From contig NZ_CP009831.1 of NCBI RefSeq assembly GCF_000959525.1, forward strand, positions 744,001-808,000: 64,000 bases of DNA, written 5' to 3'. This DNA is from Burkholderia multivorans ATCC BAA-247 (lineage in GTDB: Bacteria > Pseudomonadota > Gammaproteobacteria > Burkholderiales > Burkholderiaceae). The notes under the pieces were generated by a model. The model worked only from the letters and a program-made list of their open reading frames with translations, did no database searches and was not told where the DNA came from. The translations under genes and the position numbers were made by a program. Positions 1 to 17,183 of the stretch are shown in pieces (within the stretch, counting starts at the first letter, position 1; the number at the start of each line of letters is the position of its first letter).

Positions 1-1
1 C

Positions 2-145
2 ACCCAGCTGCGCGGACGGGCAGGCGAGCGGCAGGTGCCGAATGCCCGGCTGGCGGTCGTCAGTGGCTACGGCATGGTCGAGTATCGCTACGGCATGTGT
101 GCGAATGCCGTCGTGCTGGAAGCGGTTGAGCGGGGTGCGCAATGA
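2..145 (+). CDS. Thiolase-like protein, C-terminal fragment (gene starts outside window)
   Basis: Only the last 47 residues are in the window; the frame is open from the first bases to a TGA at 143-145. The visible part contains the glycine-rich stretch VVSGYGMVEYRYG and ends in ANAVVLE, which resembles the C-terminus of thiolase-superfamily proteins of the lipid-transfer/SCP-x type. The stop overlaps the start of the following DUF35 gene (ATGA), so the two are translationally coupled. Thiolase-like plus DUF35 pairs are known acyltransferases or retro-aldolases acting on CoA esters, with DUF35 as an essential partner. The exact substrate cannot be read from this fragment, and the active-site cysteine lies outside the window. 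Confidence 0.7.
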   Translation, partial: TQLRGRAGERQVPNARLAVVSGYGMVEYRYGMCANAVVLEAVERGAQ

Positions 146-447
146 AACTCGAGGTATTCCAGTGCAAGCAATGCGGTTCGACGGTGTTTCCGGCGCGCTA
201 TTTCTGTTTTGAATGCGGCGGCGCCGAGTGGCGCGAGCGAGCGGTCGAACACGGCCGTGTCGGCGAATTGACGACCGTGCGCCGTCGCGTCGGCGCACAA
301 GACGGCGGCGACGTGCTTCTTGCCAGCGTGACGACGGATGCCGGCCCGACCGTCATCGCGCGGCTCGAAGGCGCGGTGCGAACGGGCGACCGCGTCCGCG
401 TTGCAGTCGACGAACAGAACCGCGTTGTGGTACTGCCGATCGCCTGA
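142..447 (+). CDS. DUF35 zinc-ribbon/OB-fold protein, partner of the thiolase-like protein
   Basis: This 101-residue protein starts with a rubredoxin-like zinc ribbon (Cys8, Cys11, Cys22, Cys25) followed by a beta-rich OB-fold segment (about 40-101), the standard layout of the DUF35 family. Members form a complex with thiolase-like enzymes and are thought to bind the CoA substrate. The ATG overlaps the stop of the upstream gene by four bases, which supports a paired complex. It stands 117 bases before the aldehyde dehydrogenase and reads in the same direction. Its place next to an aromatic ring-cleavage set suggests a side-chain or CoA-ester step, but this is inference. Confidence 0.85.
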   Translation: MKLEVFQCKQCGSTVFPARYFCFECGGAEWRERAVEHGRVGELTTVRRRVGAQDGGDVLLASVTTDAGPTVIARLEGAVRTGDRVRVAVDEQNRVVVLPIA

Positions 448-564
448 CCCACGCGGAAATGTGTTCGTCGAACGAGGCCGGTCGCACCGGCGGGTAGGCG
501 TCGGGATCCGGGCACGCTCGGACATGTGCACGGAACGGCAAAATTTATCAAGCAGGAGAAGGGT

Positions 565-2055
565 GTGACATCTCAATTGACTTCGACCTTGCGCGACCCG
601 CAGCTGTTGCGCCATTACATCAACGGTGAGTTTGTGGCGAGCGACACACGCTTTCCCAACCTGAGTCCGATCGACGGTCGCAAGCTGGCCGACGTCTGCG
701 AAGCAGATGCCGCGCTCGTCGATAGCGCCGTCCGTGCGGCTCACGCGGCGCAAAAGGCGGGCTGGCGCGACACGACGCCCGCGCAACGGGCGGCATGGCT
801 GCATAAGATCGCGGACGGCATCGAGGCCCGCTTCGACGAGTTCGTCGCGGCCGAAGTTGCCGATACCGGCCGGCCCGTCGCGCAGGCCCGCACCCTCGAC
901 ATCGCACGCGGCATTGCCAATTTTCGGACCTTTGCCGATCTTGTCCGCACCGCAAACGGCGAGTATTTCGAAACCCATACGGCAGACGGCGGCGAGCTGA
1001 TCAACTATGTGACGCGCAAGCCGCTCGGCGTGATCGGCATCATATCGCCGTGGAATCTGCCGCTGCTATTGCTCACATGGAAGGTGGCACCGGCGCTGGC
1101 GATGGGCAACTGCGTGGTCGCCAAGCCCTCCGAGGAGACGCCCAGCTCTGCAACGTTGCTCGCCGAAGTCATGCACGAGGTCGGCTTGCCGCCGGGCGTC
1201 TTCAACCTGATTCATGGGCACGGGCAGAACGCGGCCGGCGAATTCCTGACGCGTCATCCGGGTATCAGCGCAATCACGTTCACCGGCGAGTCGCGCACCG
1301 GCAGCACGATCATGAAGGCCGTTGCGGACGGCGTGAAAGAGGTGTCGTTCGAGCTGGGCGGCAAGAACGCGGCTGTCGTGTTCGCGGACGCCGACTTCGA
1401 TGCGGCGGTGGCCGGTGTGCTTCGATCCAGTTTCACCAACGCCGGTCAGGTCTGCCTGTGCAGCGAGCGCGTTTATGTGGAGCGGCCGATCTTCGAGCGC
1501 TTTGTCGCGGCGCTCAAGGAACAGGCGGAAGGATTGCGCGTTGGCGCGCCGGAAGATCCCACCACGACGATGGGGCCGCTCATTTCGCGCGGCCATCGCG
1601 ACAAGGTGATGTCGTATTTCCGTCTTGCGGTCGAAGAAGGCGCGACTGTCGTGACCGGAGGCCGTGCACCGAGCTTTGGCGACGCACGGGACGACGGTGC
1701 GTTCGTGATGCCGACCATCTGGACTGGTTTGCCGGATTCCGCCCGGTGCGTCCGGGAAGAGATCTTCGGCCCGGTGTGCCACATCGCGCCGTTCGACGAC
1801 GAAGACGAGGTCGTGAAGCGCGTCAACGACAGCGCTTATGGCCTGGCTGCCAGCATCTGGACGACTCAGCTTGCGCGCGGCCATCGGGTCGCGAGGCAGA
1901 TCGAGACGGGCATCGTGTGGGTCAATGCGTGGTTCGTTCGCGATCTGCGCACGCCCTTCGGCGGCACCAAACTGTCGGGGCTGGGACGCGAGGGCGGCCG
2001 CCATTCGCTCGACTTCTATTCCGAATTGACGAACGTCTGCGTGAGGATCGCATGA
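565..2055 (+). CDS. 2-aminomuconate 6-semialdehyde dehydrogenase (ALDH superfamily)
   Basis: A 496-residue NAD(P)-dependent aldehyde dehydrogenase. The general base Glu263 lies in ELGGKN and the catalytic Cys297 in GQVCLC, with PWNLP and the C-terminal [15 protein letters not shown] segment typical of 2-hydroxymuconic/2-aminomuconic semialdehyde dehydrogenases. I chose GTG at 565 because AGGAG at 554-558 is well spaced; an upstream ATG at 526 has no ribosome binding site. It overlaps the next gene (ATGA at 2052). With HAAO and ACMSD directly downstream, oxidation of 2-aminomuconate semialdehyde to 2-aminomuconate in the 3-hydroxyanthranilate pathway is the natural assignment (nbaE/amnC-type). 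Family certain, substrate inferred from context. Confidence 0.88.
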
Positions 2056-2477
2056 ATCCGACTACTTCAGCGCGCGTCGTGCCGGGCAAGGCCACGCCGC
2101 GCGGGCGCTTCCCGCATATCACGCGAGCCGGCGACTTTCTGTTCGTGTCCGGCACCAGTTCGCGACGTCCGGACAACACGATCGATGGCGCATCGGCCGA
2201 CGAATTCGGCACGGCCACGCTCGATATCCGGCGCCAGACGCGCGCCGTGATCGAGAACCTGCGCGACATATTGAAGAGCGAGGGGGCGGACTTGTCGAAC
2301 CTCGTTGAGATCTCGGCATTCCTCGTGAACATGAGCGATTTTGGCGGCTACAACGAAGTGTATGCGGCGTATTTCGACGAGTCGGGCCCGGCACGAACGA
2401 CTGTCGCGGTTCACCAGCTGCCTCATCCGCATCTGCTCATCGAGATGAAGGCAGTGGCATACGTTCCCGCGCGCTGA
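2052..2477 (+). CDS. 2-aminomuconate deaminase, RidA (YjgF) family
   Basis: A 141-residue RidA-family protein. The fold signature is seen in [19 protein letters not shown] (about 24-42), the central [18 protein letters not shown] helix, and the end [21 protein letters not shown] with the usual Arg before TTV. RidA relatives hydrolyse enamines and imines; the branch found in aminophenol and 3-hydroxyanthranilate clusters deaminates 2-aminomuconate to 4-oxalocrotonate with release of ammonia. The ATG overlaps the dehydrogenase stop, and HAAO follows after 48 bases. The pathway needs exactly this step between dehydrogenase and decarboxylase, so context supports the specific call over generic RidA. 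Confidence 0.85.
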
Positions 2478-3059
<582 letters not shown>

Positions 3060-3084
3060 CCGAACCCGTCCAGGGCAAACCAAC

Positions 3085-4119
3085 ATGACAGTGCGAATCG
3101 ACATGCATGCCCACTTTTTTCCGCGTATTTCGCGGGAAGAAGCACGGGCGCTCGATCCCGAGCATGCGCCGTGGCTCCGGGTCGATCCGGACGGCGACAC
3201 CGGGACGATCATGACCGGAGAGCGCGATTTCCGGCCCGTCTATCGGGCCTTATGGGATCCCGCGACGCGGATCGCCGAAATGGACCGATGCGGCGTGGAC
3301 ATCCAGTTGATGTGCGCGACGCCCGTGATGTTCGGCTACCGGTACGACGCGGTAGCGGCGCATGAATGGGCCGCGCGAATGAACGATCGCGCGCTGGAAT
3401 TCTGTTCGTACGCACCGGCGCGCCTGATGCCGCTGGCTCAAGTGCCGCTGCAGGACGTCGAACTGGCCTGTCGGGAAGCGTCGCGTGCCCGCCGCGCCGG
3501 CCATCGTGGCGTGCAGATCGGCAATCACCTCGGCGCGCGCGATCTCGACGACGAACAGCTGGTGACGTTTCTGACGCATTGCGCGCACGACGACATACCG
3601 GTGCTCGTCCATCCGTGGGACATGATGACCGACGGCCGCATGAAAAAGTGGATGTTGCCGTGGCTCGTCGCGATGCCGGCCGAAACACAGTTGAGCATCT
3701 TGTCGCTGATTCTTTCCGGGGCGTTCGAGCGCATTCCGACGACGCTCAAGCTTTGCTTCGCGCATGGCGGCGGCAGCTTTGCATTCCTGCTGGGGCGCGT
3801 GCAGAACGCGTGGGAGCAGCGAGACATCGTCCGCGAGAACTGCCCGAACCCGCCAATTTCGTACGTCGATCGTTTCCATGTCGATAGTGCCGTGTTCAGC
3901 GACGGCGCGTTGCGGTTGCTCGTGGAGACGATGGGCGAAGACCGTGTGTTGCTCGGCTCCGACTATCCGTTCCCGCTCGGCGAGCAGGTCGTCGGCGAAC
4001 TGGTGGCGAACCATCCGCAACTGGGCGAAGCAGCGAAGGAGAAAATCCTCGGCGTCAATGCGCAACGCTTTTTCAATCTGGTGGATGACGCCAGCTCCGG
4101 AGATCGTCATGCAAATTGA
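3085..4119 (+). CDS. nbaD: 2-amino-3-carboxymuconate-6-semialdehyde decarboxylase (ACMSD)
   Basis: A 344-residue amidohydrolase-fold decarboxylase that removes CO2 from the unstable ring-cleavage product before it cyclises to quinolinate. Zinc ligands are visible as the N-terminal HAH (His8, His10), His176 in LVHPWDMM, His227 in FAHGGGS and Asp293 in LGSDYPFP, the set known for ACMSD. Length matches the family. The start is the ATG before [12 protein letters not shown]; longer upstream frames run through HAAO and are rejected. Its last 11 bases overlap the start of the following SDR gene, so the block is read as one transcript. Confidence 0.94.
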
Positions 4120-4822
4120 AGGCTGCGTCGCATGTGTGACGGGCGCCGACCGCGGGCTCGGTGCGGGACTGCTTGAAGCGTTGCTGGCGCGGGGCGCGCG
4201 CAAGGTCTATGCGGGCGTCAGGCAAGCCGGCCGGCTTGCCGGCGATGATCCGCGCGTCGTGCCGGTCGAGCTGGACATCACGAACGTCGAGCAGGTGGCG
4301 ACGGCGGCGGCGAGTGCCACGGACATCACGCTCTTGATCAACAACGCAGGGCTGAACCGGATGCAGCCGGTCCTGGAAGCCCATGACGCCGAAGCGGCGC
4401 GTGCCGAAATGGAAGTGAATTACTTCGGGACGTTGAACATGATGCGTGCGTTCTCGCCGGCACTCAAAACGAACGGCGGCGCCATCGTCAACATCCTGTC
4501 GATACTCGCGCGCGTCGCGCTGCCGTCCATGGCGTCGCTGAGCGCATCGAAGGCCGCGGCGCTTCGAATGACGGAAGGCGCACGAGCCGAGCTCGCGCCG
4601 CATCACGTCCGCGTTATCTCCGTGCTGCCCGGACCGATCGACACGGAAATGAGCCGGGACGTTCCGCCGCCGAAGATCGCGGTACGGGAAGCAGTCGACG
4701 CCGTGCTCGCAGCATTGGAAGGCGAAGCGGACGAGGTCTACCTGGGCGCGATGGCGCAAGACATCGCACGTGCGCTCGCGGCGGATCGTCAGGCACTGCA
4801 CGCGCGCCTTTTGACGCTTTGA
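4109..4822 (+). CDS. SDR-family protein with catalytic Tyr replaced by Leu
   Basis: A 237-residue short-chain dehydrogenase/reductase-fold protein. The cofactor motif TGADRGLG (about 11-18), LDITN, NNAG and the catalytic-position Ser131 are present, as is Lys148. In the YxxxK motif the Tyr position (13 after Ser131, as usual) is Leu144 (LSASK), encoded by CTG at 4538-4540. Loss of this general acid/base normally abolishes dehydrogenase activity, so it may be a binding or isomerase/lyase-like protein, or use another residue. The start overlaps ACMSD, placing it inside the 3-hydroxyanthranilate operon. No step in the standard pathway calls for an SDR; its role is unknown. Confidence 0.85.
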
Positions 4823-4874
4823 GCGACCGCGGAAATCGTAACTACGTTGCATTGAGCAAAGGACGAAACAGATC

Positions 4875-6113
4875 ATGAACGGTGAATACATCGACATCGA
4901 CGCCGGTAACGGCCAAGCCTTCTCTGCGTACCTCGCGCGGCCCCGTCAAGGGTCCGGGCCGGGTCTGGTCCTGTTGCAGGAGATCTTCGGCATCAACGAC
5001 TACATGAAGGAAACGGCCGATCGGTTTGCCGAAGAAGGGTATGTCGTGCTGGTGCCCGACCTGTTCTGGCGCATGAAGCGCGGCGTCAACCTCGGCTACA
5101 CCGGCGAGGACTTCGCGACGGCGCTGCGATATAACGACGAGTTCGATGTCGATCTGGCAATCACCGACATCGCATCGACGATCAAGACGCTCCGCTCGCT
5201 CGACCAGCATGCTGGAAAGGTCGGCGCCGTAGGCTATTGCCTGGGCGGCAAGCTCGCGATGCTGGCGGCTGCCCGCACTGATATCGACTGCGCGGTGAGT
5301 TACTACGGTGTGGGGCTCGATGCCTATCTGGACGATATTCCCTCGATCCGATGCCCGATGGTGTTTCATTTCGCCGGTAATGACGCGCTGTGCCCCGAGG
5401 CAACGCGCGAGACGATCCAGTCAGCGCTTTGCGCGCTGCCTGCGGTCGAGCAATACGTGTATCCCGGGTGCGATCACGCGTTCGCGACGCCGAAGCGCGA
5501 GCATTTCGACAAGCCGGCGGCGATGATGGCCTATTCGCGCACCATCGCACTGTTGCGTAAAGTGCTCGGGCCCGTCTATGACCTGAATGCGCTGTGGGAA
5601 CTGCACTGCTATCACGAATTCGATTCGCGCGATGTCGATTCGATCTTGCCGACCATGGTTTCCGCGCCGTACGTCAATCATGTGCCGACCATGACGGGAG
5701 GCGTCGGTCACGACGATCTCAAACGCTTCTACAAGTATCACTTCGTTCACGCGAATCCGAAGGACACGCATTTCATTCCGATCTCGCGCACCATCGGCGC
5801 GGACCGCATCGTCGATGAATTCATTTTCTGCGCCACCCACGATCGCGAGATCGACTGGATGCTGCCCGGACTCGCCCCCACCGGCAAGTACATCGAGATT
5901 CCGATGCTGGCCGTCATCTGCTTCCGCGGCGACAAGCTGTACAACGAGCATATTTACTGGGACCAGGCTTCGGTTCTGGTGCAGATCGGCGTGCTCGATC
6001 CGACGGGACTTCCGGTTGCCGGCATCCGTACGGCGAAGAAGCTGATAGACGAGACGTTGCCGAGCAACGAGTTGATGAGGAACTGGGCGTCGAGCGAAGG
6101 CAAGCCGATCTAA
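4875..6113 (+). CDS. Dienelactone hydrolase fused to a SnoaL-like domain
   Basis: A 412-residue two-domain protein. Residues 1 to about 235 are a dienelactone hydrolase with the triad Cys122 (GYCLGG), Asp170 and His201 (CDHAFATP), one position from the Pseudomonas enzyme numbering. From about 240 to the end comes a NTF2/SnoaL-like alpha+beta-barrel domain (ELHCYHEFDSRDVDSI ... FICATHDREIDWMLPG ... YWDQASVLVQIGVLD). Dienelactone hydrolases open enol-lactones; SnoaL domains bind or cyclise polar organic molecules. It follows the SDR after 52 bases. A lactone intermediate is not part of the textbook 3-hydroxyanthranilate route, so it may clear a side product or belong to an extra branch. Confidence 0.85.
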   Translation: MNGEYIDIDAGNGQAFSAYLARPRQGSGPGLVLLQEIFGINDYMKETADRFAEEGYVVLVPDLFWRMKRGVNLGYTGEDFATALRYNDEFDVDLAITDIASTIKTLRSLDQHAGKVGAVGYCLGGKLAMLAAARTDIDCAVSYYGVGLDAYLDDIPSIRCPMVFHFAGNDALCPEATRETIQSALCALPAVEQYVYPGCDHAFATPKREHFDKPAAMMAYSRTIALLRKVLGPVYDLNALWELHCYHEFDSRDVDSILPTMVSAPYVNHVPTMTGGVGHDDLKRFYKYHFVHANPKDTHFIPISRTIGADRIVDEFIFCATHDREIDWMLPGLAPTGKYIEIPMLAVICFRGDKLYNEHIYWDQASVLVQIGVLDPTGLPVAGIRTAKKLIDETLPSNELMRNWASSEGKPI

Positions 6114-6190
6114 GGTTTTTCAGACCGCGGGAGCGTCATCGTCCGCGCGAGCCGGATCCGCCAGCCGGGCTTTGTTCTCAAAAGAAAATC

Positions 6191-6208
6191 GCGCCGCCGT
6201 TGCGGCGC
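6191..6208 (+). promoter_or_regulatory. Hairpin in the porin leader
   Basis: Perfect 7-base stem GCGCCGC/GCGGCGC with a CGTT loop, 21 bases before the porin ATG and preceded by an A-rich stretch. It could stall ribosomes, protect the mRNA end or be a weak terminator for readthrough from the hydrolase gene; there is no U-run after it on the + strand. Confidence 0.35.
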
Positions 6209-6229
6209 ATCAACCATACAGGTTCCATC

Positions 6230-7351
6230 ATGAAGCTAAAGTTAGGGGTGCTGGCGGTCGCGGTGATGGCGTCGACCTCGGCGTTGGCACAAAGCTCGGT
6301 GACCCTATACGGGATCATCTCGAACGGGCTCGGCTATGTCAGCAATCAGGGCGGCCACAGCAACTGGACGATGATAAGCGGCTCCAACCAGAACAATCGC
6401 CTGGGATTCAAGGTGACGGAAGATCTGGGCGGCGGCCTGTCAGCGGTCGGAATCCTGGAGAACGGCTTCGACAGCAACAGCGGCAAACTCGGGCAAGGCG
6501 GGCGGATGTTTGGACGGCAGGTATTTGTCGGCTTGTCGAGCCGGACGTACGGGACAATTACGTTCGGTCGACAGTACGACGTGCTGTGGGACTACCTGGA
6601 CCGCATCGAACCCCAGGCGATGGGCCCCGGTCTTGGCGTCAGTGTCGGCAGCAACGACAACATCGAAGGCAATTTCCGCTACAGCAACGCCATCAAGTAT
6701 GCAAGCCCGGTCTGGGGCGGCTTCGGATTCGAATCGCTGTACGCGTTCAGCAACAAGGCCGGCAGCTTCCAGCAAAACCGCGCGTTCAGTGCGGGCGTCA
6801 ATTTCGACCGGCATACGCAGCGATATGCGCTGGTCTACGTCGAAATCGACCATCCGGGCACGGCCAATCCGAACGGTGCGGTGAGCGACGACTATGCCGG
6901 CGCGCCATTCCAGCTATTTCATACCAGCCCGCTCAGTTCGTCGGTGGGCGTACGGAAACAGCGCGTCATCGCGGGAGGCGCCGAGTACGCGTTCGAGAAA
7001 CTCCGCGTCGGAGGCATCGTTTCCGATGTGCGCTACAACTATCTCGATAGCACGAGCCTGCATCTGGACAACCTTAGCGTTGTCGGTGTGTACCAGTTGA
7101 CGCCGGCCCTGTTCGTATCGGCTGCGTACTTGTATACGCACGGCAGCTACGGTGGCGTCGTCTCGAACCCGCACTGGAACCAGGGGCAGGTGAGTGTCGA
7201 CTATTTCCTGTCGAAGCGAACGGACGTCTATGCGTACGCCAACTACATCCGAGCGTCGGGATCCAACGCTCCCGCCGTGTTGTTCCTCTCGTCAAAATCG
7301 AGCACGAACGCGCAAACGGCTGTCGTGGTGGGGGTGCGTCACAAATTCTGA
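6230..7351 (+). CDS. Gram-negative general porin (Porin_4 type)
   Basis: A 373-residue outer-membrane porin. A signal peptide (MKLKLGVLAVAVMASTSALA, cleaved after the AxA at about 20) is followed by the typical start QSSVTLYGIISNGLGYVSN, the loop motif FGRQ, alternating beta-strands and a C-terminal VVGVRHKF ending in Phe, the signal for outer-membrane assembly. Length is standard for Burkholderia and Comamonas porins. It sits between ring-cleavage genes, which suggests it lets the aromatic substrate or a related organic acid enter. The start was chosen for the signal peptide; the ribosome binding site is weak. Confidence 0.92.
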   Translation: MKLKLGVLAVAVMASTSALAQSSVTLYGIISNGLGYVSNQGGHSNWTMISGSNQNNRLGFKVTEDLGGGLSAVGILENGFDSNSGKLGQGGRMFGRQVFVGLSSRTYGTITFGRQYDVLWDYLDRIEPQAMGPGLGVSVGSNDNIEGNFRYSNAIKYASPVWGGFGFESLYAFSNKAGSFQQNRAFSAGVNFDRHTQRYALVYVEIDHPGTANPNGAVSDDYAGAPFQLFHTSPLSSSVGVRKQRVIAGGAEYAFEKLRVGGIVSDVRYNYLDSTSLHLDNLSVVGVYQLTPALFVSAAYLYTHGSYGGVVSNPHWNQGQVSVDYFLSKRTDVYAYANYIRASGSNAPAVLFLSSKSSTNAQTAVVVGVRHKF

Positions 7352-7505
7352 GATCGGGATCAGGTCGGTCGAGCGTCGACAAGCCGGGCGGTTGGACGGC
7401 CATGTCCGGCACGCAAGCGAGCGAGACCGACGCAGCAATCGATCACCGCGAATAGTACGTTGAGTATCGGGCTCTATCAGGCTGGTCAATAGTTTGGATA
7501 ACGGA

Positions 7506-8291
7506 ATGAAAACGATTCTCGACCGGATTGTCGAGTGCAAGACTCGTGAAGTGCGGCTGGCAGCCGAGCGTGTGCCACAACCCGTGCTTCGAGAGATCGC
7601 AGCGACGGTCGACTCCGGAGATTTTATCGCTGCGCTTCGCGACAAGGCGGGACAGGGCTTACCGGGCGTCATTGCCGAGGTGAAAATGGCGAGCCCGTCC
7701 GAAGGGATCTTGCGGCCGGACTTCGACCCGGCGTCGATCGCGGCCTCGTACGAGGAAGCGGGCGCGGCCTGTCTGTCGGTGCTGACCGATCGGACGTTCT
7801 TCAACGGAAGCGCGTCGGACCTTCGCGCCGCGCGCGGTGCATCGAGCCTGCCGGTGCTTCGCAAGGACTTCATCGTAGACGCGTACCAGGTGTGGGAGGC
7901 ACGTGCGATGGGCGCCGACTGCATCCTGCTGATAGCGGCGGTCCTCGATGGCAGCGCGATGCGCGAACTCGAAAGCCTCGCGTTCGAACTGGGCATGGCC
8001 GTGATCGTGGAAATCCACAGCGCGGATGAGCTGGACGCGGCACTCACGTTGAATACGCCGCTGATCGGCGTGAACAACCGCGATCTTGCGACGTTCTCCA
8101 CAAATATTGAAACAACGCTTGCGATGCGCCGCCTGATCCCCGCCGACAGGATGGTCATTTCGGAATCGGGAATTCGGAGTGCGGACGATGTAAGAAGGCT
8201 CCGTTCGATAGGCGTCGATCATTTTCTGGTCGGCGAAGCATTGATTCGCGCCGAGCACCCCGGTGTTGCGCTCAAGCAGATGTTCTATTAG
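7506..8291 (+). CDS. Indole-3-glycerol-phosphate synthase paralogue (TrpC family)
   Basis: A 261-residue TIM-barrel protein of the TrpC family, which normally closes the indole ring in tryptophan synthesis. Residues equivalent to the Sulfolobus catalytic set are all present: Glu58 and Lys60 ([11 protein letters not shown]), Lys120 (LRKDF), Glu169 (VEIH), Asn190 (GVNNRDL), and Glu220/Ser221 (SESGI). It is therefore expected to be active or nearly so. It is not next to trpE, trpG or trpD but between a porin and the hydratase of a 3-hydroxyanthranilate degradation block. It is likely a second copy with another substrate or a salvage role. ATG 7506 is taken; a TTG 12 bases upstream is possible. 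Confidence 0.85.
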
Positions 8292-8344
8292 GCCGCGCTC
8301 CACAGTATCGATCGATATTTTCTCGCACTAACAGCTGAGAGGTC

Positions 8345-9151
8345 ATGAAAGCCATGCGAATTCAAGAGGCGGCTGCCGCGCTGCGTGATGCAGCAAAGAC
8401 CCGCAAAACCATCCCGCCGTTGCGCGAGACATACGAGCAACTGAGCATCGACGACGCGTATGCGATTCAGCGGATCAATACGGATCGGCATCTGGCCGAT
8501 GGTCGCCGCCTCGTCGGCTGCAAGATTGGCCTGACGTCGGTCGCGGTACAGAAGCAACTCGGCGTCGATCAGCCTGACTTCGGCATGTTGTTCGATCACA
8601 TGGGCTATGGCGACAGCGAACCCATTCCCGCTGAAATCCTTACTCAGCCGAAAATCGAAGCCGAAATCGCGTTCGTCATCGGTCGCGATATCACGGTGAA
8701 GAATCCCGGTCATCTGGACGTGCTCGGCGCCATCGAGTACGCGCTGCCGGCGCTGGAAATTGTCGGCAGCCGCATCGCAGACTGGAACATTCGCATCGCG
8801 GACACGATTGCCGATAACGCATCGTCGTGCGCGTACGTTCTGGGCACCCGCCCGCGCAAGCTGTCGAGCTTCGACCTGCGTCTGTGCGGGATGGCGATGG
8901 AGCGGTGCGGGGAACTCGTCTCGGTGGGGGCCGGCGCCGCGTGCCTCGGCAATCCGCTCAACGCGGTCGTATGGCTTGCGCGAACGATGACGACGCTCGG
9001 CACGCCGCTCAAGGCCGGCGACTTGGTGTTGTCGGGAGCGTTGGGGCCGATGGTGGCCGTCCGCCCCGGCGACGTTTTCGACGCACGCATAAACGGGCTT
9101 GGCTCCGTCCGTGCAGTTTTTGACCACGATCGAAGCGAGGCACGCCAATGA
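8345..9151 (+). CDS. 2-oxopent-4-enoate (2-hydroxypenta-2,4-dienoate) hydratase
   Basis: A 268-residue protein of the hydratase/decarboxylase (MhpD) family within the FAH fold. Recognisable features are CKIGLTS (about 59-65), the acidic metal-binding motif [11 protein letters not shown] with its two Glu residues, the ALEIVGSRI segment and [11 protein letters not shown]. It adds water to 2-hydroxypenta-2,4-dienoate, giving 4-hydroxy-2-oxovalerate. It overlaps the next gene (ATGA at 9148), a paralogous decarboxylase; the two enzymes form a complex in catechol meta pathways. Between the two paralogues this one is closer to hydratases, with a longer N-terminus and the FGMLFDHM loop. Confidence 0.88.
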
Positions 9152-9915
9152 TCACGACGATGGAATACGCGCGGTTGCTCGACGACGCCGCAGTCAATGC
9201 GACCGAGGTGGCCCAGTTCGATCCGGAAAGCCGGCTGTCGCTCGATACGGCGTATGCGATTCAGGCCGCGTCGATACAACGGCGTGTCGAACGCGGCCAC
9301 CGTCGCGTCGGTGTCAAGATGGGCTTTACCAGCCGCGCGAAGATGCTGCAAATGGGCCTGTCGGATGTGATCTGGGGACGCTTGACGGCCGACATGCAGC
9401 TCGAGGAAGGCACGGCGATCGATTTTGCGCGATTCGTGCATCCGCGCGTCGAGCCCGAAATTGCCTTCGTTCTGAAGCGATCGCTCGACGGCGACGTGAC
9501 GGCGCCACAGGCGTTGGCCGCTGTCGAGGCCGTCGCGCCTGCGCTCGAAATCATCGACTCGCGCTACAAGGACTTCAAGTTCACGTTGCCGGAAGTGATA
9601 GCGGACAACGCGTCGTCGAGCGGCTTTGTCATCGGTCCGTGGTGCGATCCTCATGTCGACCTGTCGAATCTTGGCCTCACGCTGAATTTGGATGGACGCG
9701 TCGTGCAGGTGGGATCGACCGCGGCATTGCTCGGCCATCCGTTGCGTTCGCTGGTTGCCGCTGCCCGGCTTTCAGCGCGAGCGGGCGAACCGCTGCAAGC
9801 CGGATGGGTCGTGATGGCCGGCGGCGCGACGCCGGCCGAATGGATCAAGCCGGGACAGCATGTGTCGGTCGATATCGAACGACTCGGCAGTGCGTGCTTC
9901 GACGTCAGGAACTGA
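9148..9915 (+). CDS. 4-oxalocrotonate decarboxylase
   Basis: A 255-residue member of the same hydratase/decarboxylase family as the gene it overlaps upstream. [15 protein letters not shown], the VEPEIAFVL acidic metal site and [14 protein letters not shown] (a decarboxylase-type signature) distinguish it from the hydratase. It decarboxylates 2-oxo-3-hexenedioate/4-oxalocrotonate to 2-hydroxypenta-2,4-dienoate, following the deaminase step. Family length is 250-265. Coupled translation with the hydratase fits the known hydratase-decarboxylase complex (DmpE-DmpH type), which channels the unstable dienoate. Confidence 0.88.
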
Positions 9916-10048
9916 CGCGGCGCAGGCGTTCTCGCGCACGCTTGCGGATAGTCGAATTGAGCATCCGGTGCGGCTGGCGTGTCGCCGCCCGCACTACCTG
10001 CGGACAGCGCCGTTCGGTTGGCCGTGCAGTCACATTGGGGAGTCGCAG

Positions 10049-11011
10049 ATGAATGACAGGGTGAAGGTCGCGATCATCGGTCCCGGCAATATCGGCACCG
10101 ATCTGATGATCAAGATAATGCGAAACAGCAGGCATCTGAAAATGGGCGCCATGGTCGGCGTCGATCCGAATTCGGAAGGGTTGGCGCGGGCGGCGCGCAT
10201 GGACGTGGCGACGACGGCGGATGGCATCGACGGCTTGCTGCGGCTGGATGTATTCAAGGAAATCGATATCGTTTTCGATGCGACGTCGGCGGGCGCGCAC
10301 GGACGTCACAATGAACTGCTGCAGGCGCACGGGGTTCAGGTGATCGACCTGACGCCTGCCGCGATCGGCCCGTATGTGATCCCGTCGATCAATCTGGAAG
10401 CAGAAAACGCGACAAACATGAACATGGTCACCTGCGGCGGGCAGGCCACGATTCCGATCGTCGCCGCTGTTTCGCGCGTGGCCAAGGTGCACTACGCGGA
10501 GATCGTCGCGTCGATCTCCAGCCGGTCCGCCGGCCCGGGAACGCGCGCGAATATCGACGAATTCACCGAAACGACGCGGGCCGCGATCGAAAAGCTCGGC
10601 GGCGCCGAGCGCGGTAAGGCGATTATCGTTCTCAATCCGGCGGAGCCGCCGTTGATCATGCGCGACACCGTGTTCGTGCTGTCGGACAACGCGGAGCCGG
10701 CGGCTGTCGAGGCCAGTATCGCCGAGATGGTCGGACGCGTGCAGGAATACGTCCCGGGTTATCGCCTGAAGCAGTCGGTGCAATTCGACGTGGTGCCGCC
10801 GGACAGGCCGCTCAACGTGCCGGGCATCGGGCCGCGGCACGGCTTGAAGACATCGGTGTTTCTCGAGGTGGAAGGCGCTGCGCACTATTTGCCTTCGTAT
10901 GCAGGCAACCTCGACATCATGACGTCGGCGGCACTCGCCTGCGGCGACATGATGGCCCGGCGCCGGATGGCCGCCGGCATCGCTCGCGGCTTCAAGGAGA
11001 CGACGCAATGA
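10049..11011 (+). CDS. mhpF: Acetaldehyde dehydrogenase (acetylating)
   Basis: A 320-residue CoA-acylating aldehyde dehydrogenase of the DmpF/MhpF family. The NAD motif GPGNIGTDL starts the protein (about 10-18) and Cys129 in [11 protein letters not shown] is the acyl-accepting cysteine. It turns acetaldehyde into acetyl-CoA. Length agrees with the family. The start ATG follows TTGGGGAG at 10036-10043; a longer frame from 9860 overlaps the decarboxylase and is rejected. The stop overlaps the aldolase start (ATGA at 11008), matching the obligatory aldolase-dehydrogenase channel complex of meta-cleavage pathways. Confidence 0.95.
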
Positions 11012-12051
11012 CTTCAGCAGAAAAGAAGCTTTACATCTCGGACGTGACGCTGCGCGACGGCAGCCATGCGATCCGTCATCAATACGGCATCGACCATGTC
11101 AGGGCGATTGCCGCAGCGCTCGACGATGCCGGCGTCGACAGCATCGAGGTCGCTCACGGCGATGGCCTCCAGGGATCGAGCTTCAACTACGGATTCGGCG
11201 CCCATACCGACGTCGAGTGGATTGCAGCCGCTGCGGAAAGCGTCAAGCGGGCGAAGATCGCCACGCTGCTGATTCCCGGCATCGGAACCACCCATGATCT
11301 ACGGCAGGCGTTCGATGCAGGCGCACGCGTCGTGCGCGTGGCAACGCATTGCACGGAAGCCGATGTATCGCGCCAGCATCTCGACTTTGCGCGCGAACTC
11401 GGTATGGACGCGGTGGGTTTTCTGATGATGAGCCACATGACGACCCCGCAGAAGCTCGCTGAGCAGGCGAAAATGATGGAAACGTTCGGCGCCACCTGCG
11501 TTTATGTGGTCGATTCCGGTGGTGCGCTCGGCATGAACGAGATCCGCGACAGGTTCCGTGCCCTCAAAGCGGTATTGAAAGCCGACACGCAAACCGGAAT
11601 GCACGCGCATCACAACCTGAGCCTCGGCGTGGCCAACTCGCTGGTTGCCGTGGAGGAGGGATGCGATCGCATCGATGCGAGCCTGGCCGGCATGGGCGCA
11701 GGCGCGGGCAATGCGCCGCTCGAAGTATTCATTGCGGCGGCACAGCGACAGGGCTGGAATCATGGCTGCGATTTGTACCGGCTCATGGACGCGGCCGACG
11801 ATCTTGTCCGGCCGCTTCAGGATCGGCCGGTACGTGTCGACCGCGAAACGCTTGCGCTCGGTTTCGCCGGCGTTTATTCGAGCTTCCTGCGTCATGCGGA
11901 AGTCGCCGCCAGCAAATACGGGCTGAAGACCGTCGACATTCTGGTCGAACTGGGCAGACGCAAGATGGTCGGCGGCCAGGAAGACATGATCGTCGATGTC
12001 GCGCTGGATCTGTTAAAGCGGCGACAGCCGGCCACGAGCGATGCGCAGTGA
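11008..12051 (+). CDS. mhpE: 4-hydroxy-2-oxovalerate aldolase
   Basis: A 347-residue HMGL-like TIM-barrel aldolase. [14 protein letters not shown] carries Arg16, Asp17 and His20, and MHAHHN gives the metal ligands His199 and His201, all within one residue of the DmpG numbering. It splits 4-hydroxy-2-oxovalerate into pyruvate and acetaldehyde; the latter passes to the dehydrogenase encoded immediately upstream with an overlapping start. This completes the route from 3-hydroxyanthranilate to central metabolites. Confidence 0.95.
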
Positions 12052-12130
12052 GCCGTCGTGGCGGCGGCGTTGCCTTGTGTTTCTTCCACAGTCGCAGCGA
12101 GTGACTGCGACTCGATTCTGGTGAATCACC

Positions 12131-13069
12131 ATGCGAACCCTGTCGGCTTCTCGTCAGCATCAACCGCTGGTCTATCGGTTGAATATCGGTGCAGTCAAAG
12201 TGACCGTCATCGCCGAGTCGGTCGCGCCGCTGCTGCGATGGCAAGAACTCTATCCCGACGCGACGGAGCAGTCCGTATCGGCATCCGTCTTTAGCACCGA
12301 TCGCAAGCTCTACGACGTCGGCAGCGAGCGGCTGGTCATCGCTATCCAGGGCTTTCTGATCGAAAGCGACGGTACCACGCTGATGGTCGACACTTGCGTC
12401 GGGGACTGCAAGGCCAGGGCGCGAGTCGAATTCAATGAAGCCCGTTTCGGCTGGCTGAGCCGGCTGCAGGCGGCCGGCATCCGCGTCGAGGACGTCGACA
12501 GGGTGCTTTCCACACATCTGCACGTCGATCATGTCGGCTGCAACACCTACTACGCTGACGGCAGGTGGCGCCCCACGTTTCCCAACGCGCGCTACCTGTT
12601 CGTCAACGAGGAATTCGAGTTTTGGTCGAGCGAGCTGGCGAGATCGCCGCTGGAGAGAACCGGCGACTACATCGGCGACAGCGTATTGCCGCTTTTCGAC
12701 GCCGGACTCGCCGATATGGTCGATTCGCGACATGTCATCGATTCGTCCATTCGCTTGATTCCTCTGCCCGGACATACGCCCGGTCATGTCGGCGTCTGCA
12801 TCGAAAGCAATCGCGAGCGAGCGATTATTTCCGGCGACCTGTTTCATACGGCGCTGCAATTCGAAAATCCGGACTGGAGCACGAGGTTTTGTGTCGATCC
12901 CGAACAATCGCGTCGATCCAGGCGAGCGTTCTTCGAAGCCCATGCCGACACCGATACGCTGATTTTGCCGGCGCACTTTCCCTATCCGTGTGCGGGGTTC
13001 ATTTGCCGCGAGGGGCGTGGCTACGCATTTCGATTTATCGGTTCAGAGAAGATATCGACAGTACTCTAG
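12131..13069 (+). CDS. Metallo-beta-lactamase-fold hydrolase
   Basis: A 312-residue MBL-fold protein. The di-zinc motif THLHVDHVG supplies His129, His131, Asp133 and His134; PLPGHTPGHVGV, ISGDLFH and LPAHFP supply the further ligands. The pattern resembles the AttM/quorum-quenching lactonase-like and related hydrolase group rather than beta-lactamases, and no signal peptide is seen. It lies 79 bases after the aldolase in the same direction and is the last gene of the block. A lactone or ester hydrolase linked to the pathway is plausible; the substrate is not known. No good ribosome binding site precedes ATG 12131. Confidence 0.85.
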   Translation: MRTLSASRQHQPLVYRLNIGAVKVTVIAESVAPLLRWQELYPDATEQSVSASVFSTDRKLYDVGSERLVIAIQGFLIESDGTTLMVDTCVGDCKARARVEFNEARFGWLSRLQAAGIRVEDVDRVLSTHLHVDHVGCNTYYADGRWRPTFPNARYLFVNEEFEFWSSELARSPLERTGDYIGDSVLPLFDAGLADMVDSRHVIDSSIRLIPLPGHTPGHVGVCIESNRERAIISGDLFHTALQFENPDWSTRFCVDPEQSRRSRRAFFEAHADTDTLILPAHFPYPCAGFICREGRGYAFRFIGSEKISTVL

Positions 13070-13284: not shown

Positions 13285-14934
13285 CTATCTGCCCCGCCCC
13301 AGAGACAGCTTTTCCAGCAGCACCTTCACGTCCACCGGCTTCGGCAAATGATCGTCGAAGCCGGCGGCAATTGCGGCGTCCCGATCGTGTATCGACGCGA
13401 GGCCCGTCAGGGCCAGCGCGTAGATGCGCCGTCGGCCGCCTTCGCGACTGCGCACGTCGCGCAGCAGTGCATGGCCGTCGGCGCCGGGCATGGCGAGATC
13501 GCTGACGAGAATATCGAAAGAGCCGGCAGCGAGACAAGCGAGCGCTTCTTTCGCACCGGAAGCGATCTGCACTTGCGCGCCGAGCCCGCGCAGCAAGTGC
13601 GCCAACGGCTCCTGGGCCGGCACGTCGTCGTCGACGAGCAGCACCGACAGGCCGTCGAGCCGTGCCGATTCCGCGGGTGCAGCAGCGACGGTTCCCTCTT
13701 CGGTCGCGGCGGTCTGCAGCAACGGTATGCGAACCGTCAGCCTGGTACCGCGACCTTCGCCCTCGCTGCTGGCGGTCACCGTGCCCCCGTGCGCCGTCAC
13801 CAGATGCTTGACGATCGAGAGGCCCAGGCCAAGGCCGCCATACTGGCGCGTGCGACTGGTGTCGGACTGCATGAAACGGTCGAACAGACGCGGCAGCAAT
13901 TCCGGTTTGACGCCGATGCCGTTGTCGGCGACCGAGAGCTCGATGAGTGCACCGAGACGCGTCAGCGCGACCTCCACGCGGCCGCCTTGCGGCGTGAACT
14001 TCAGCGCATTGCCGATCAGGTTGGAGGCGACCTGCTGCAGACGACGCGCGTCGCCGCTGACGACCGCCTGGCTTTGCAATCCCGACGTCGCGAGCATGAT
14101 GTCCTTTTTGGCCGCCACCGGGCGATGGCTTTCCACCACGGTGCGTACGGCCGCTGCAAAGTCGACCGGCTTCGAATCGAGCGAGAACCGTCCCGACGAG
14201 ATGCGCGAGACGTCCAGCAAATCGTCGATCAGTTCGGCCTGCAGCTGACAATGCCGCAGAATGGTCGTGACCGCGCGCTGACTCATTTGCTCGTCGGTCG
14301 GCATGCCGCGCTCGCTTGCCGTCATGAGCACGGCCGCCCAGCTGGAGATCACGTTCAGCGGCGCGCGCAGCTCGTGCGATACGAGGGCGAGAAAGTTGTC
14401 CTTCGCGGTATTGGCCCGTTCCGCATCGAGTTGCGCGGACTGCGCGGTGCCGAGCGCGCTTTTGAGCTGATGGATGTCCTGGAAGGCGAGTACGGCGCCG
14501 TCGATGCGATCGTCGGCCGTGCGATAGGCACGCACGTTGACGAGCCACCATCGGCCTTCGCTGTCCTGATACTCGTGCTCTACATCCGCCAATCCCTGCA
14601 CGGCCGACTGCACGACGCGTTCGAGGTCGACCGCCGAGAACAGGCTGTTCAACTGCGCCAGCGGTTGTCCTACGCTGTCGTCCGGCAATCCGAACAGCGC
14701 TTGCGCCTGCGGCGAAAAATGCCGAAGGCGCAACTGCCGATCCAGCACGACGACCGGTAGCGGGATGCCTTCGACCAGGTTGCTCAGATCGTCGTTGACG
14801 CGGTCGAGTTGCTCGTTGCGCGATTTCAGCTCGTCGTTCAGCGACGCAAGCTCCTGATTGGCCGACTCGAGTTCCTGCTTGGCCAGCAGCAGTTCCTCGT
14901 TCGCGCTTTGCAGCTCTTCGTTGGTGCTGAGCAT
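13285..14934 (-). CDS. Hybrid sensor histidine kinase, probable truncated CheB/CheR-PAS-kinase remnant
   Basis: Encodes 549 residues: a coiled coil of NEEL repeats (1-50), a PAS domain (about 52-165), a HisKA dimerisation domain with the H box SHELRAPLN (about 195), an ATPase domain (NLIGNALKFTP, DNGIG, GLGLGLSIVKHL) and a C-terminal receiver (LLVDDD, phospho-acceptor Asp in ILVSDLAMP, Lys in LPKPVD). The NEEL coil is the hallmark linker of CheB-CheR-PAS fusion kinases. The frame stays open for 48 codons upstream of ATG 14934 and continues the coil, but holds no ATG/GTG/TTG and ends at a TGA (15079-15081). The 5' two-thirds of the ancestral gene therefore appears lost. It may be translated from 14934 or be a pseudogene. 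Confidence 0.75.
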   Translation of the reverse strand: MLSTNEELQSANEELLLAKQELESANQELASLNDELKSRNEQLDRVNDDLSNLVEGIPLPVVVLDRQLRLRHFSPQAQALFGLPDDSVGQPLAQLNSLFSAVDLERVVQSAVQGLADVEHEYQDSEGRWWLVNVRAYRTADDRIDGAVLAFQDIHQLKSALGTAQSAQLDAERANTAKDNFLALVSHELRAPLNVISSWAAVLMTASERGMPTDEQMSQRAVTTILRHCQLQAELIDDLLDVSRISSGRFSLDSKPVDFAAAVRTVVESHRPVAAKKDIMLATSGLQSQAVVSGDARRLQQVASNLIGNALKFTPQGGRVEVALTRLGALIELSVADNGIGVKPELLPRLFDRFMQSDTSRTRQYGGLGLGLSIVKHLVTAHGGTVTASSEGEGRGTRLTVRIPLLQTAATEEGTVAAAPAESARLDGLSVLLVDDDVPAQEPLAHLLRGLGAQVQIASGAKEALACLAAGSFDILVSDLAMPGADGHALLRDVRSREGGRRRIYALALTGLASIHDRDAAIAAGFDDHLPKPVDVKVLLEKLSLGRGR

Positions 14935-15752: not shown

Positions 15753-17183
15753 TCACGCGCCGCCGCGTGGCCTTGAAAGCCGCGCATACGCCGCCAGCGC
15801 GGCTTGTCGCGAAGCGGCAAGGTCGACCATGGACGCGGGATAGCCGCAGGCTGACAGCGCGGCCGGATGCTTCCACGGCTGATGCAGCACGTTGGCCGGC
15901 AGCGCCGACAACTCCGGGAGCCAGCGCTTGAGATACGCGGCGTCGGGGTCGAACTTGGCGGCTTGCAGATACGGATTGAATACGCGGAAGTACGGTGCGG
16001 CATCGGCCCCGCAGCCGGCCACCCATTGCCAGCCCAGCGTGTTGTTCGCCAGGTCTGCATCGACGAGCGTGTCCCAGAACCATCGCGCGCCGTGCCGCCA
16101 GTGCCGGCGGAGGTTCTTGGTCAGAAAGCTCGCGACCACCATTCTCACGCGATTGTGCATCCAGCCGGTCTGCCAAAGCTGCCGCATGCCGGCATCGACG
16201 AGCGGAATGCCGGTACGCCCCTGCTGCCAACGCGCCAAGTCATCATTGTCGTCGGGCGCCCACGCAAAGGTGTCGAACCGTGCATCGAAGTTGGCGTCGG
16301 TCGTGTGCGGGAAATGGTAGAGCAGATGATGCGCAAACTCGCGCCAGCCGAGCTCCCGCAGAAACGGCTCCAGGTCGGGCCGATCGCGGTCGGTCGTCCG
16401 CGACGCGCGTTCTTGCAGCGTTCGTAGAATCTGCGTCGGCGTGATCTCGCCGTAATGCAGGTGTGCAGAAAGCCGCGAGGTACCCATGCGGGCCGGCGCG
16501 TCGCGCGCGTCGCCGTATTCGGCCAGCGCTTCGTCGACGAACTCCGCCAGACGTTCCCACGCGCCCGCTTCGCCGGGGCGCCACGCCTCGGCCAGTCCCG
16601 CGTCCCATCGGACGCGCGGCAGCAGGCCGATCGCCTCGACGGCAGTCGAATCGTCCGTCGTCATCCATCGGCGAGGCCGTGCTGCCGGTAGCGGATGGCA
16701 GTCGGACAAGCTCGTGCGCAGCTTGCGCCAGAAAGGTGTGAAGACGCGATAGGGCTGCCCGGAGTCGGTCGCGACTTTCCAGGGTTCCTGCCAGAGCGTG
16801 CCGGGGTAGCTCTGCGCGGCGACGCCTTGCGCGCGCAACGCGCTTTTCAGCGCCGCATCGCACGCGATGGCAGCCGGCTCGTAGCGGCGCGTCCAGTACA
16901 CGCACTGTGCGCCGACCGCGCGTGCGAGCGCCGGCACGGCGATCGTCGGATCGTTCTGCATCACGAGCAATCGCCCGCCTTGCTGCCGAAGTGCTCGATC
17001 GAGCGACGTCAGGCTGTGGTGCAGCCACCAGCGGCTCGCCGCACCCGGCGACCAGATCGCGTCCTCATCCGGCGTGTGTACGTAGACGGGCAGCACGGCA
17101 TCGTGCCGCGCGCATGCCGCCGACAACGCGGGATGATCGGAAAGCCGCAGGTCGCGGCGAAACAGTACGATTGCGACAGACAT
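15753..17183 (-). CDS. phrB: Deoxyribodipyrimidine photolyase
   Basis: A 476-residue photolyase/cryptochrome-family protein. The N-terminal alpha/beta antenna domain opens with VAIVLFRRDLRLSDHPAL; the C-terminal FAD domain contains TSRLSAHLHYGEIT, ELGWREFAHHLLYHFP, GIPLVDAGMRQLWQTGWMHN and the Trp-rich DTLVDADLANNTLGWQWV signature. It repairs UV-induced cyclobutane pyrimidine dimers using light. Length and residues are those of class I CPD photolyases. It reads alone on the minus strand, with 257 bases to the alcohol dehydrogenase upstream. Confidence 0.95.
   Translation of the reverse strand: MSVAIVLFRRDLRLSDHPALSAACARHDAVLPVYVHTPDEDAIWSPGAASRWWLHHSLTSLDRALRQQGGRLLVMQNDPTIAVPALARAVGAQCVYWTRRYEPAAIACDAALKSALRAQGVAAQSYPGTLWQEPWKVATDSGQPYRVFTPFWRKLRTSLSDCHPLPAARPRRWMTTDDSTAVEAIGLLPRVRWDAGLAEAWRPGEAGAWERLAEFVDEALAEYGDARDAPARMGTSRLSAHLHYGEITPTQILRTLQERASRTTDRDRPDLEPFLRELGWREFAHHLLYHFPHTTDANFDARFDTFAWAPDDNDDLARWQQGRTGIPLVDAGMRQLWQTGWMHNRVRMVVASFLTKNLRRHWRHGARWFWDTLVDADLANNTLGWQWVAGCGADAAPYFRVFNPYLQAAKFDPDAAYLKRWLPELSALPANVLHQPWKHPAALSACGYPASMVDLAASRQAALAAYARLSRPRGGA

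Follow-up and report, generated by a model that had tools for sequence, protein, structure and literature searches.

A conserved gene block of Burkholderiaceae that may feed hydroxylated oxindole-acetates into 3-hydroxyanthranilate ring cleavage

Introduction

A block of genes in Burkholderia multivorans ATCC BAA-247 raises the question “What is degraded where the enzymes of 3-hydroxyanthranilate breakdown are interspersed with genes that do not fit the known route?” The block lies across the start of a 64,000-nucleotide stretch (the window, G000:C2:744001-808000) of the 6.32 Mb genome G000, and its additional genes encode a thiolase/DUF35 pair, a short-chain dehydrogenase/reductase (SDR), a fusion of DLH and SnoaL domains, a porin, a TrpC paralog and a metallo-beta-lactamase-fold hydrolase (MBL). 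A sequence-only reading of the stretch had proposed that the true substrate is larger, a CoA- or acyl-linked amino-aromatic or indolic compound that is trimmed to 3-hydroxyanthranilate. Our analysis largely supports that proposal and sharpens it to a substrate of the oxindole-acetate type, because the block has a CoA ligase, an Ltp2-like thiolase/DUF35 pair and an IifA-like DLH-SnoaL protein, and because isatin-hydrolase replacements occur elsewhere. With a probability of roughly 0.6, we propose that the block degrades 7-hydroxylated dioxindole-3-acetate (DOAA) via 7-hydroxyisatin to 3-hydroxyanthranilate, which is then mineralized. The 7-position would follow from 3-hydroxyanthranilate 3,4-dioxygenase (HAAO), because that enzyme acts on 3-hydroxyanthranilate; position 3 of anthranilate, the site of the hydroxyl, corresponds to indole C7. 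Published work is cited by PubMed Central number, for excerpts of its text.

Results

Gene Content and Conservation of the Block

The block consists of 17 genes on the + strand, with several overlaps and no more than about 150 bp between consecutive genes, and one divergent LysR gene, 18 in all. Every gene that the sequence-only reading named is there, on the + strand and at the positions it gave or close to them. The region upstream of base 1, which it had singled out for regulators and CoA ligases, contains the LysR gene and an acyl-CoA ligase gene, plus an MFS gene and the rest of the thiolase gene; the first co-directed gene begins about 4.1 kb before window base 1, and the LysR gene lies further out. 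Positions there are given in L009 (G000:C2:726001-745500), whose base 18001 is window base 1. That reading had also seen neither kynureninase nor regulator. It was right about kynureninase, which is absent from the block and for which the genome search gave a single copy, on contig G000:C3, but not about the regulator if the block is taken as a whole: the divergent LysR-type gene (L009:12870-13847, - strand), named from its own sequence and from the annotated gene aligned to it in Caballeronia sp. Sq4a, presumably controls the block.

We surveyed 398 genomes sampled from the family: at least 187 have a DLH-SnoaL match (E<=1e-120) and 82 an HAAO match (E<=1e-30), two of the latter at only about 39% identity. 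The two genes are neighbors, by contig and distance, in at least seven genomes: G000, B. cenocepacia NCTC13227 (G614), C. cordobensis (G553), C. temeraria (G529), C. concitans (G423), Caballeronia sp. GAFFF1 (G488) and G675. The six relatives, from three genera, have 18 of 18 genes in unchanged order. Plasmid p1 of Caballeronia sp. Sq4a also has the block, with all 18 genes detectable and some aligning in part only: the best alignments cover 51% of the length of the semialdehyde dehydrogenase, 56% of the porin, 66% of the aldolase and 76% of the MBL, and the annotation splits the porin into two coding sequences. Some of these genes may be interrupted, and because four align only in part, this copy (L040:9653-21863) may be decaying or misassembled.

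As controls we used 20 HAAO regions, 15-20 kb each, from 75 other HAAO-bearing genomes, with cut-offs of E 1e-8 and 45% coverage. Thiolase, DUF35, DLH-SnoaL, TrpC and MBL were found in none of the 20; there were only distant matches, to a CoA ligase (28%, one region) and to SDRs of other kinds in two regions (29-36%), and several regions had porins, while eight had kynureninase. The extra genes are therefore not part of ordinary 3-hydroxyanthranilate clusters. The sequence-only reading had held that extra genes missing from most homologous regions would be unrelated passengers; they are indeed missing from the controls, but the whole set is kept in the six relatives in which HAAO and DLH-SnoaL are neighbors, and it forms a conserved module of its own. 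The extra genes are not passengers, and the block is probably one catabolic unit built from two modules.

The Upper Module and the Reactions Proposed for It

Block genes described from here on are all on the + strand. The MFS transporter (L009:15599-16954) and the porin (6230..7351; annotated as such in Sq4a and conserved in the block) would take up 7-hydroxy-DOAA, or 7-hydroxy-oxindole-3-acetate (oxIAA) that is then hydroxylated at C3, and the acyl-CoA ligase (L009:13865-15487; PRK06155 equivalog, 896 vs 722 bits) would convert the substrate to its CoA ester. The thiolase-fold protein of 388 aa (L009:16979-18145), whose gene starts 1022 bases before window base 1 and is cut by the window edge (3′ end at window 1..145), could then act with its DUF35/ChsH2-like zinc ribbon-OB partner (142..447, joined by an ATGA overlap) in a retro-aldol cleavage to acetyl-CoA and 7-hydroxyisatin; dioxindole-3-acetyl-CoA, a CoA ester whose beta-hydroxyl is tertiary, would be expected to give isatin and acetyl-CoA in the same way.

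In the DUF35 protein the zinc ribbon (zf-ChsH2) scores above its Pfam gathering score and the OB part below (22.5 vs 27.1). The thiolase was classified by alignment to 6ok1, one of its solved relatives (E 5e-32), which is listed as a lipid-transfer protein and which we take to be the Ltp2 of T. curvata; the 6ok1 numbering agrees with Tyr294 and Tyr344 of PMC12329534. The thiolase motif YDDY, invariant in 12/12 rows, is aligned to YDHF of 6ok1, with Tyr280 opposite Tyr294. The motif Tyr acts as base in Ltp2 (PMC12329534), and the block pair thus has the catalytic Tyr of the YDxF/Y motif as well as a DUF35 partner. The second catalytic residue of Ltp2 and of the related aldolase Sal is absent, as judged from the 6ok1 alignment and the roles given in PMC12329534, Gly329 being at the place of Ltp2 Tyr344 and Asp282 at that of Sal Cys304. 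Sal itself has no Tyr344 either and relies on the third residue of its own YDCY motif (PMC12329534); the likeness to Sal is drawn from this description, the direct alignment being to 6ok1 only.

Reduction of 7-hydroxyisatin to 3,7-dihydroxyindolin-2-one would fall to the SDR (4109..4822) or to another reductase. The sequence-only reading had recognized that the SDR lacks the catalytic Tyr, and alignment places Leu144 at that position, with Ser131 and Lys148 kept, likewise in 25 aligned orthologs; the classical Ser-Tyr-Lys set is thus missing throughout this 26-row subfamily. A solved close ortholog, 5u4s (“putative short chain dehydrogenase,” E 3.5e-128), also has Leu for Tyr by alignment. SDRs that keep the Tyr, those of L046 and L111 (27-30% identity) and three others added for comparison, were not counted as orthologs. 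We considered that the SDR might be a decayed gene and disfavor this because the Tyr loss is common to 26/26 rows.

The DLH-SnoaL fusion (4875..6113), identified from its Pfam domains and homologs, is IifA-like and is presumed to act on a (hydroxy)dioxindole: it would oxygenate 3,7-dihydroxyindolin-2-one in a cofactor-free cleavage to 3-hydroxyanthranilate and CO2. Its DLH half scores 156 bits and its SnoaL half 24.4, less than the Pfam gathering score of 28.4; proteins annotated as NTF2-family or ester cyclase are also among the matches of the C-terminal half. In A. baumannii (L046) the genes after a 57% identical homolog encode an SDR, an indole monooxygenase and a flavin-reductase-like protein, which is the iif order. 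IifA, which is reported to convert 3-hydroxyindolin-2-one to anthranilate without a cofactor (PMC6221969), has a C-terminal SnoaL domain (PMC7225977); the block protein is a two-domain protein of the same kind, homologous to the iif-context copy, with a sub-threshold SnoaL part. Among 38 DLH-SnoaL proteins placed in a tree, the iif rows are a separate group of six, outside the 32-row clade with the module copies.

The Lower Module and Sources of 3-Hydroxyanthranilate

HAAO/NbaC (2499..3059) scores above its family cut-off (286 vs 220 bits) and is accompanied by the downstream enzyme set of 3-hydroxyanthranilate meta-cleavage. These enzymes would yield pyruvate and acetyl-CoA, with the following acting after HAAO: an ACMSD-like amidohydrolase (3085..4119; a decarboxylase with Pfam Amidohydro_2, PF04909, and no NCBIfam match), 2-aminomuconate (2-hydroxymuconic) semialdehyde dehydrogenase (526..2055; TIGR03216, 871 vs 693 bits), a RidA family protein presumed to be the 2-aminomuconate deaminase (2052..2477; below the NCBIfam cut-off), a member of the 4-oxalocrotonate decarboxylase family (9148..9915; also below it), 2-oxopent-4-enoate hydratase of the MhpD family (8345..9151; borderline, 350.4 vs 350 bits), 4-hydroxy-2-oxovalerate aldolase (11008..12051; TIGR03217, 588 vs 286 bits) and acylating acetaldehyde dehydrogenase (10049..11011; TIGR03215, 466 vs 282 bits).

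The annotated block proteins include no nitrobenzoate-type gene (no genome-wide search was made), and none of the 17 co-directed genes encodes a hydroxylase (the genome was not searched for kynurenine 3-monooxygenase or anthranilate 3-hydroxylase). An iac-like auxin cluster with Rieske genes is found on the same contig, about 220 kb from the block (G000:C2:503-519 kb; L133, L134); it carries two different acyl-CoA-dehydrogenase-type oxygenases. A two-component flavin oxygenase set adjoins five blocks and lies about 6 kb past a sixth (six of eight blocks), and the same set is found in iac-like clusters, one of them in G000. We can only speculate that this set, whose oxygenase is of the acyl-CoA-dehydrogenase type, may provide the hydroxyl at C3 or a different one.

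TrpC and MBL

As the sequence-only reading had it, the block TrpC (indole-3-glycerol phosphate synthase, 7506..8291; 355 vs 317 bits) is a second copy, the other being at G000:C3:594336. It has the family score and the active-site motifs, and the eight aligned copies keep the motif residues, whose roles we take to be the usual ones, except for one Ala-for-Gly beside SES. Among the loci examined this TrpC is found only in the eight HAAO-linked blocks and in P. sejongensis. TrpC poisoning is known for 3-methylanthranilate, and our guess is that the second copy may be a spare enzyme that shields tryptophan synthesis from analogs derived from 3-hydroxyanthranilate; none of the literature matches listed supports poisoning by 3-substituted anthranilates in title or abstract. 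The MBL (12131..13069; lactonase/MPH-like), a homolog of which (49-51% identical) adjoins the upper module in Pandoraea loci, may release a conjugate. A pattern scan found no terminator 3′ of it. Past the block, on the opposite strand, translations read as a sensor-kinase-like protein (13285-14934, -) and a photolyase-like protein (15753-17183, -).

Isatin Hydrolase and a Second Assembly in Actinobacteria

Scanning one genome per species with the thiolase alignment yielded 75 loci from the best 80 of 86 matches, with some genomes represented twice and some contigs short. DLH-SnoaL accompanies 28 of the 75 thiolases and a PF04199-type cyclase 16 (one only 29% identical; four of the Burkholderiales ones several kb off), and no locus has both (hypergeometric P 1.8e-4 assuming independent loci, which these are not). 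In Cupriavidus L177 and L178 the cyclase directly follows DUF35. Both cyclases tested, those of L177 and Gordonia L211, match isatin hydrolase best among solved proteins, the former with E 6e-106 vs 5e-5 for kynurenine formamidase. An anthranilate would likewise be the end product if isatin were hydrolyzed, decarboxylated to an aminobenzaldehyde and oxidized.

HAAO is in the flank of seven of the 75 loci vs 0.05 expected by position if independence is assumed; five of these are copies of the block, the other two actinobacterial loci. In Gordonia L211 one side has the isatin-hydrolase-type gene (E 3e-65 to 5nmp), a thiamine diphosphate (ThDP) enzyme, MFS, the thiolase (again with YDDY), CoA ligase, hydratase, acylating dehydrogenase and aldolase, with a short open reading frame beside the thiolase that is DUF35-like by eye, and the opposite side has LysR, dehydrogenase, decarboxylase, RidA, HAAO and ACMSD. 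Rhodococcus L209 has matches to cyclase, ThDP enzyme, MFS, thiolase, ligase, dehydrogenase, decarboxylase, RidA, HAAO and ACMSD, some in broken frames, and no hydratase or aldolase within the stretch covered.

The Upper Module Outside the Block

LysR, CoA ligase, MFS, thiolase, DUF35, SDR and DLH-SnoaL occur together, with no HAAO in the stretch covered, in P. sejongensis (L089, also with porin and TrpC), P. haematera (L091), G649 (L095) and two Pandoraea loci (L097 and L098, also with porin and MBL); L109 has the upper module without MFS. In Trinickia mobilis, DUF35 and DLH-SnoaL share a single 515-aa open frame (L093:2686-4233, -). The eight block copies of DLH-SnoaL and that of P. sejongensis form a clade of nine in the tree (support 100/99), with P. 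sejongensis nested inside it at modest support (89/73), and because of this placement P. sejongensis may have lost its linked HAAO genes.

From the 187 genomes with a DLH-SnoaL match, 31 relatives' loci were inspected, and the other contexts found were clusters with Rieske oxygenase, cupin or indole-oxygenase genes. L042:8114-15233, L101, L102 and L104 carry an M20 peptidase, MFS, a weakly kynureninase-like pyridoxal phosphate (PLP) enzyme and a cupin, then a Tyr-less SDR and an IifA-like protein. Because these four M20/PLP/cupin loci have the latter two, the same terminal enzymes may serve a different indolic substrate there. In eight Paraburkholderia loci (L184-L188, L190, L193, L194) a thiolase and DUF35 at 75-77% identity are accompanied by a Rieske oxygenase and another CoA ligase, and the LysR/MFS set is missing.

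Discussion

Several observations weigh against the proposal that the block degrades 7-hydroxylated DOAA. The module of Trinickia (L093) has no SDR, that of P. sejongensis has the same upper enzymes and TrpC while its HAAO is unlinked (cluster L154), and for 30 of the 75 thiolases the flank covered shows none of DLH-SnoaL, SDR, cyclase and HAAO. DLH-SnoaL alone does not fix the substrate, because it is also found with Rieske, cupin and indole-oxygenase genes, and the thiolase, judged from its aligned residues, is not a plain Ltp2, because Gly329 sits where Ltp2 has Tyr344. The block has no enzyme for C3 hydroxylation of oxIAA. We sought a sequence signature of 7-hydroxyl specificity and found none: CoA ligase, thiolase, SDR and DLH-SnoaL show no fixed differences between HAAO-linked and other module copies, and therefore nothing in the upper enzymes marks the 7-hydroxyl.

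Could the upper module, then, simply convert plain DOAA or indole-3-acetate (IAA) to anthranilate, with a hydroxylase encoded elsewhere that gives 3-hydroxyanthranilate or hydroxylates the ring earlier, or with a lower module that mainly serves, for example, tryptophan? The HAAO-free module loci and the unmarked upper enzymes fit such a scheme, as do the iac-like cluster of G000, which could make DOAA, and the flavin oxygenase set near six blocks. However, with no hydroxylase among the 17 co-directed genes, with thiolase and ligase adjoining HAAO in two distant lineages, and with the TrpC copy confined, among loci examined, to HAAO-linked blocks and P. sejongensis, we consider it unlikely. A true ketothiolase that converts 2-amino-3-hydroxybenzoylacetyl-CoA to 3-hydroxyanthraniloyl-CoA, with the MBL or the DLH domain as thioesterase, seems to us decidedly improbable. 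The usual thiolase motif GHP is not in the block thiolase, YDDY resembles the motifs of aldolases, and the isatin-hydrolase and IifA-like partners would be left without a role, although Cys83 is aligned to the Cys of 7yvy (annotated acetyl-CoA acetyltransferase) that we take to be the thiolase nucleophile. A route through 2-aminobenzoylacetate has also been proposed for Bradyrhizobium (PMC8383072). That the lower enzymes are a standard set would suit an ordinary kynurenine- or nitrobenzoate-type cluster with unrelated passengers, but the intact 18-gene order in six relatives of three genera, the control regions, and a block that lacks kynureninase when 8 of 20 controls have one make this reading very improbable.

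If, as we propose, the substrate is a 7-hydroxylated DOAA, where would it come from? Conversion to oxindole derivatives is an irreversible means of auxin disposal in plants, and maize makes 7-hydroxylated ones; a review lists oxIAA-7-O-glucoside from maize seedlings and dioxindole-3-acetate 7-O-glucoside (dioxIAA-7-O-glucoside) from corn kernels (PMC11936858). The literature matches listed concern IAA and indole degradation, with no bacterial route for 7-hydroxylated oxIAA or dioxIAA among them. The word hydroxyanthranilate is absent from the main text of PMC9613470 and PMC8383072, and the product described in the excerpts of PMC12633357, PMC7225977 and PMC6221969 is anthranilate or catechol. 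Rather more tentatively, we suggest a dedicated bacterial pathway for maize-type hydroxylated auxin end products, apparently assembled twice, in Burkholderiaceae and in Actinobacteria, with the spare TrpC as self-protection. If this is true, the block fills the gap of a bacterial route for the hydroxylated oxindole auxin products of plants, and suggests functions for orphan families: the Tyr-less SDR (5u4s), the module thiolase/DUF35 and IifA-like DLH-SnoaL proteins outside iif.

Comparison with Known Systems

With nba/kyn-type 3-hydroxyanthranilate clusters the block shares HAAO, ACMSD, semialdehyde dehydrogenase, RidA, decarboxylase, hydratase, aldolase and acylating dehydrogenase, but it has no kynureninase, and its supply would come from the upper module. 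Like the iif indole oxidation cluster (IifA/IifB), it has an SDR close to a DLH-SnoaL fusion, the latter 57-59% identical to the copies in iif contexts, whereas this fusion falls outside the iif rows of the tree, its SDR belongs to another, Tyr-less subfamily, and there is no indole monooxygenase. Its thiolase/DUF35 pair resembles the steroid side-chain aldolases Ltp2-ChsH2 and Sal-Shy in thiolase fold, DUF35 partner and YDxF/Y motif, and differs in the Asp at the third motif residue, the Gly at the place of Tyr344, the stand-alone DUF35 and the proposed non-steroid substrate. The isatin hydrolase family (5nmp, 4j0n), which directly follows thiolase/DUF35 in L177 and L178, is absent from the B. 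multivorans block, where SDR and DLH-SnoaL take its place.

For the iad pathway of Variovorax and Bradyrhizobium, an acyl-CoA synthetase, a thiolase and a dehydrogenase are proposed to act after DOAA, via dioxindole/isatin to anthranilate (PMC12633357, PMC9613470). For Variovorax, mutants and metabolomics led to the proposal that iadF (acyl-CoA synthetase), iadG (thiolase) and iadH (alcohol dehydrogenase) convert DOAA, C10H9NO4, to C8H7NO2 and then anthranilate (PMC12633357). By annotation the block has such a side-chain set (CoA ligase, thiolase, dehydrogenase), and its dehydrogenase is Tyr-less. It differs in that no Rieske oxygenase corresponding to IadCDE is found among its proteins, in having DLH-SnoaL where iad has IadI (annotated as kynurenine formamidase), and in a product that would enter 3-hydroxyanthranilate ring cleavage.

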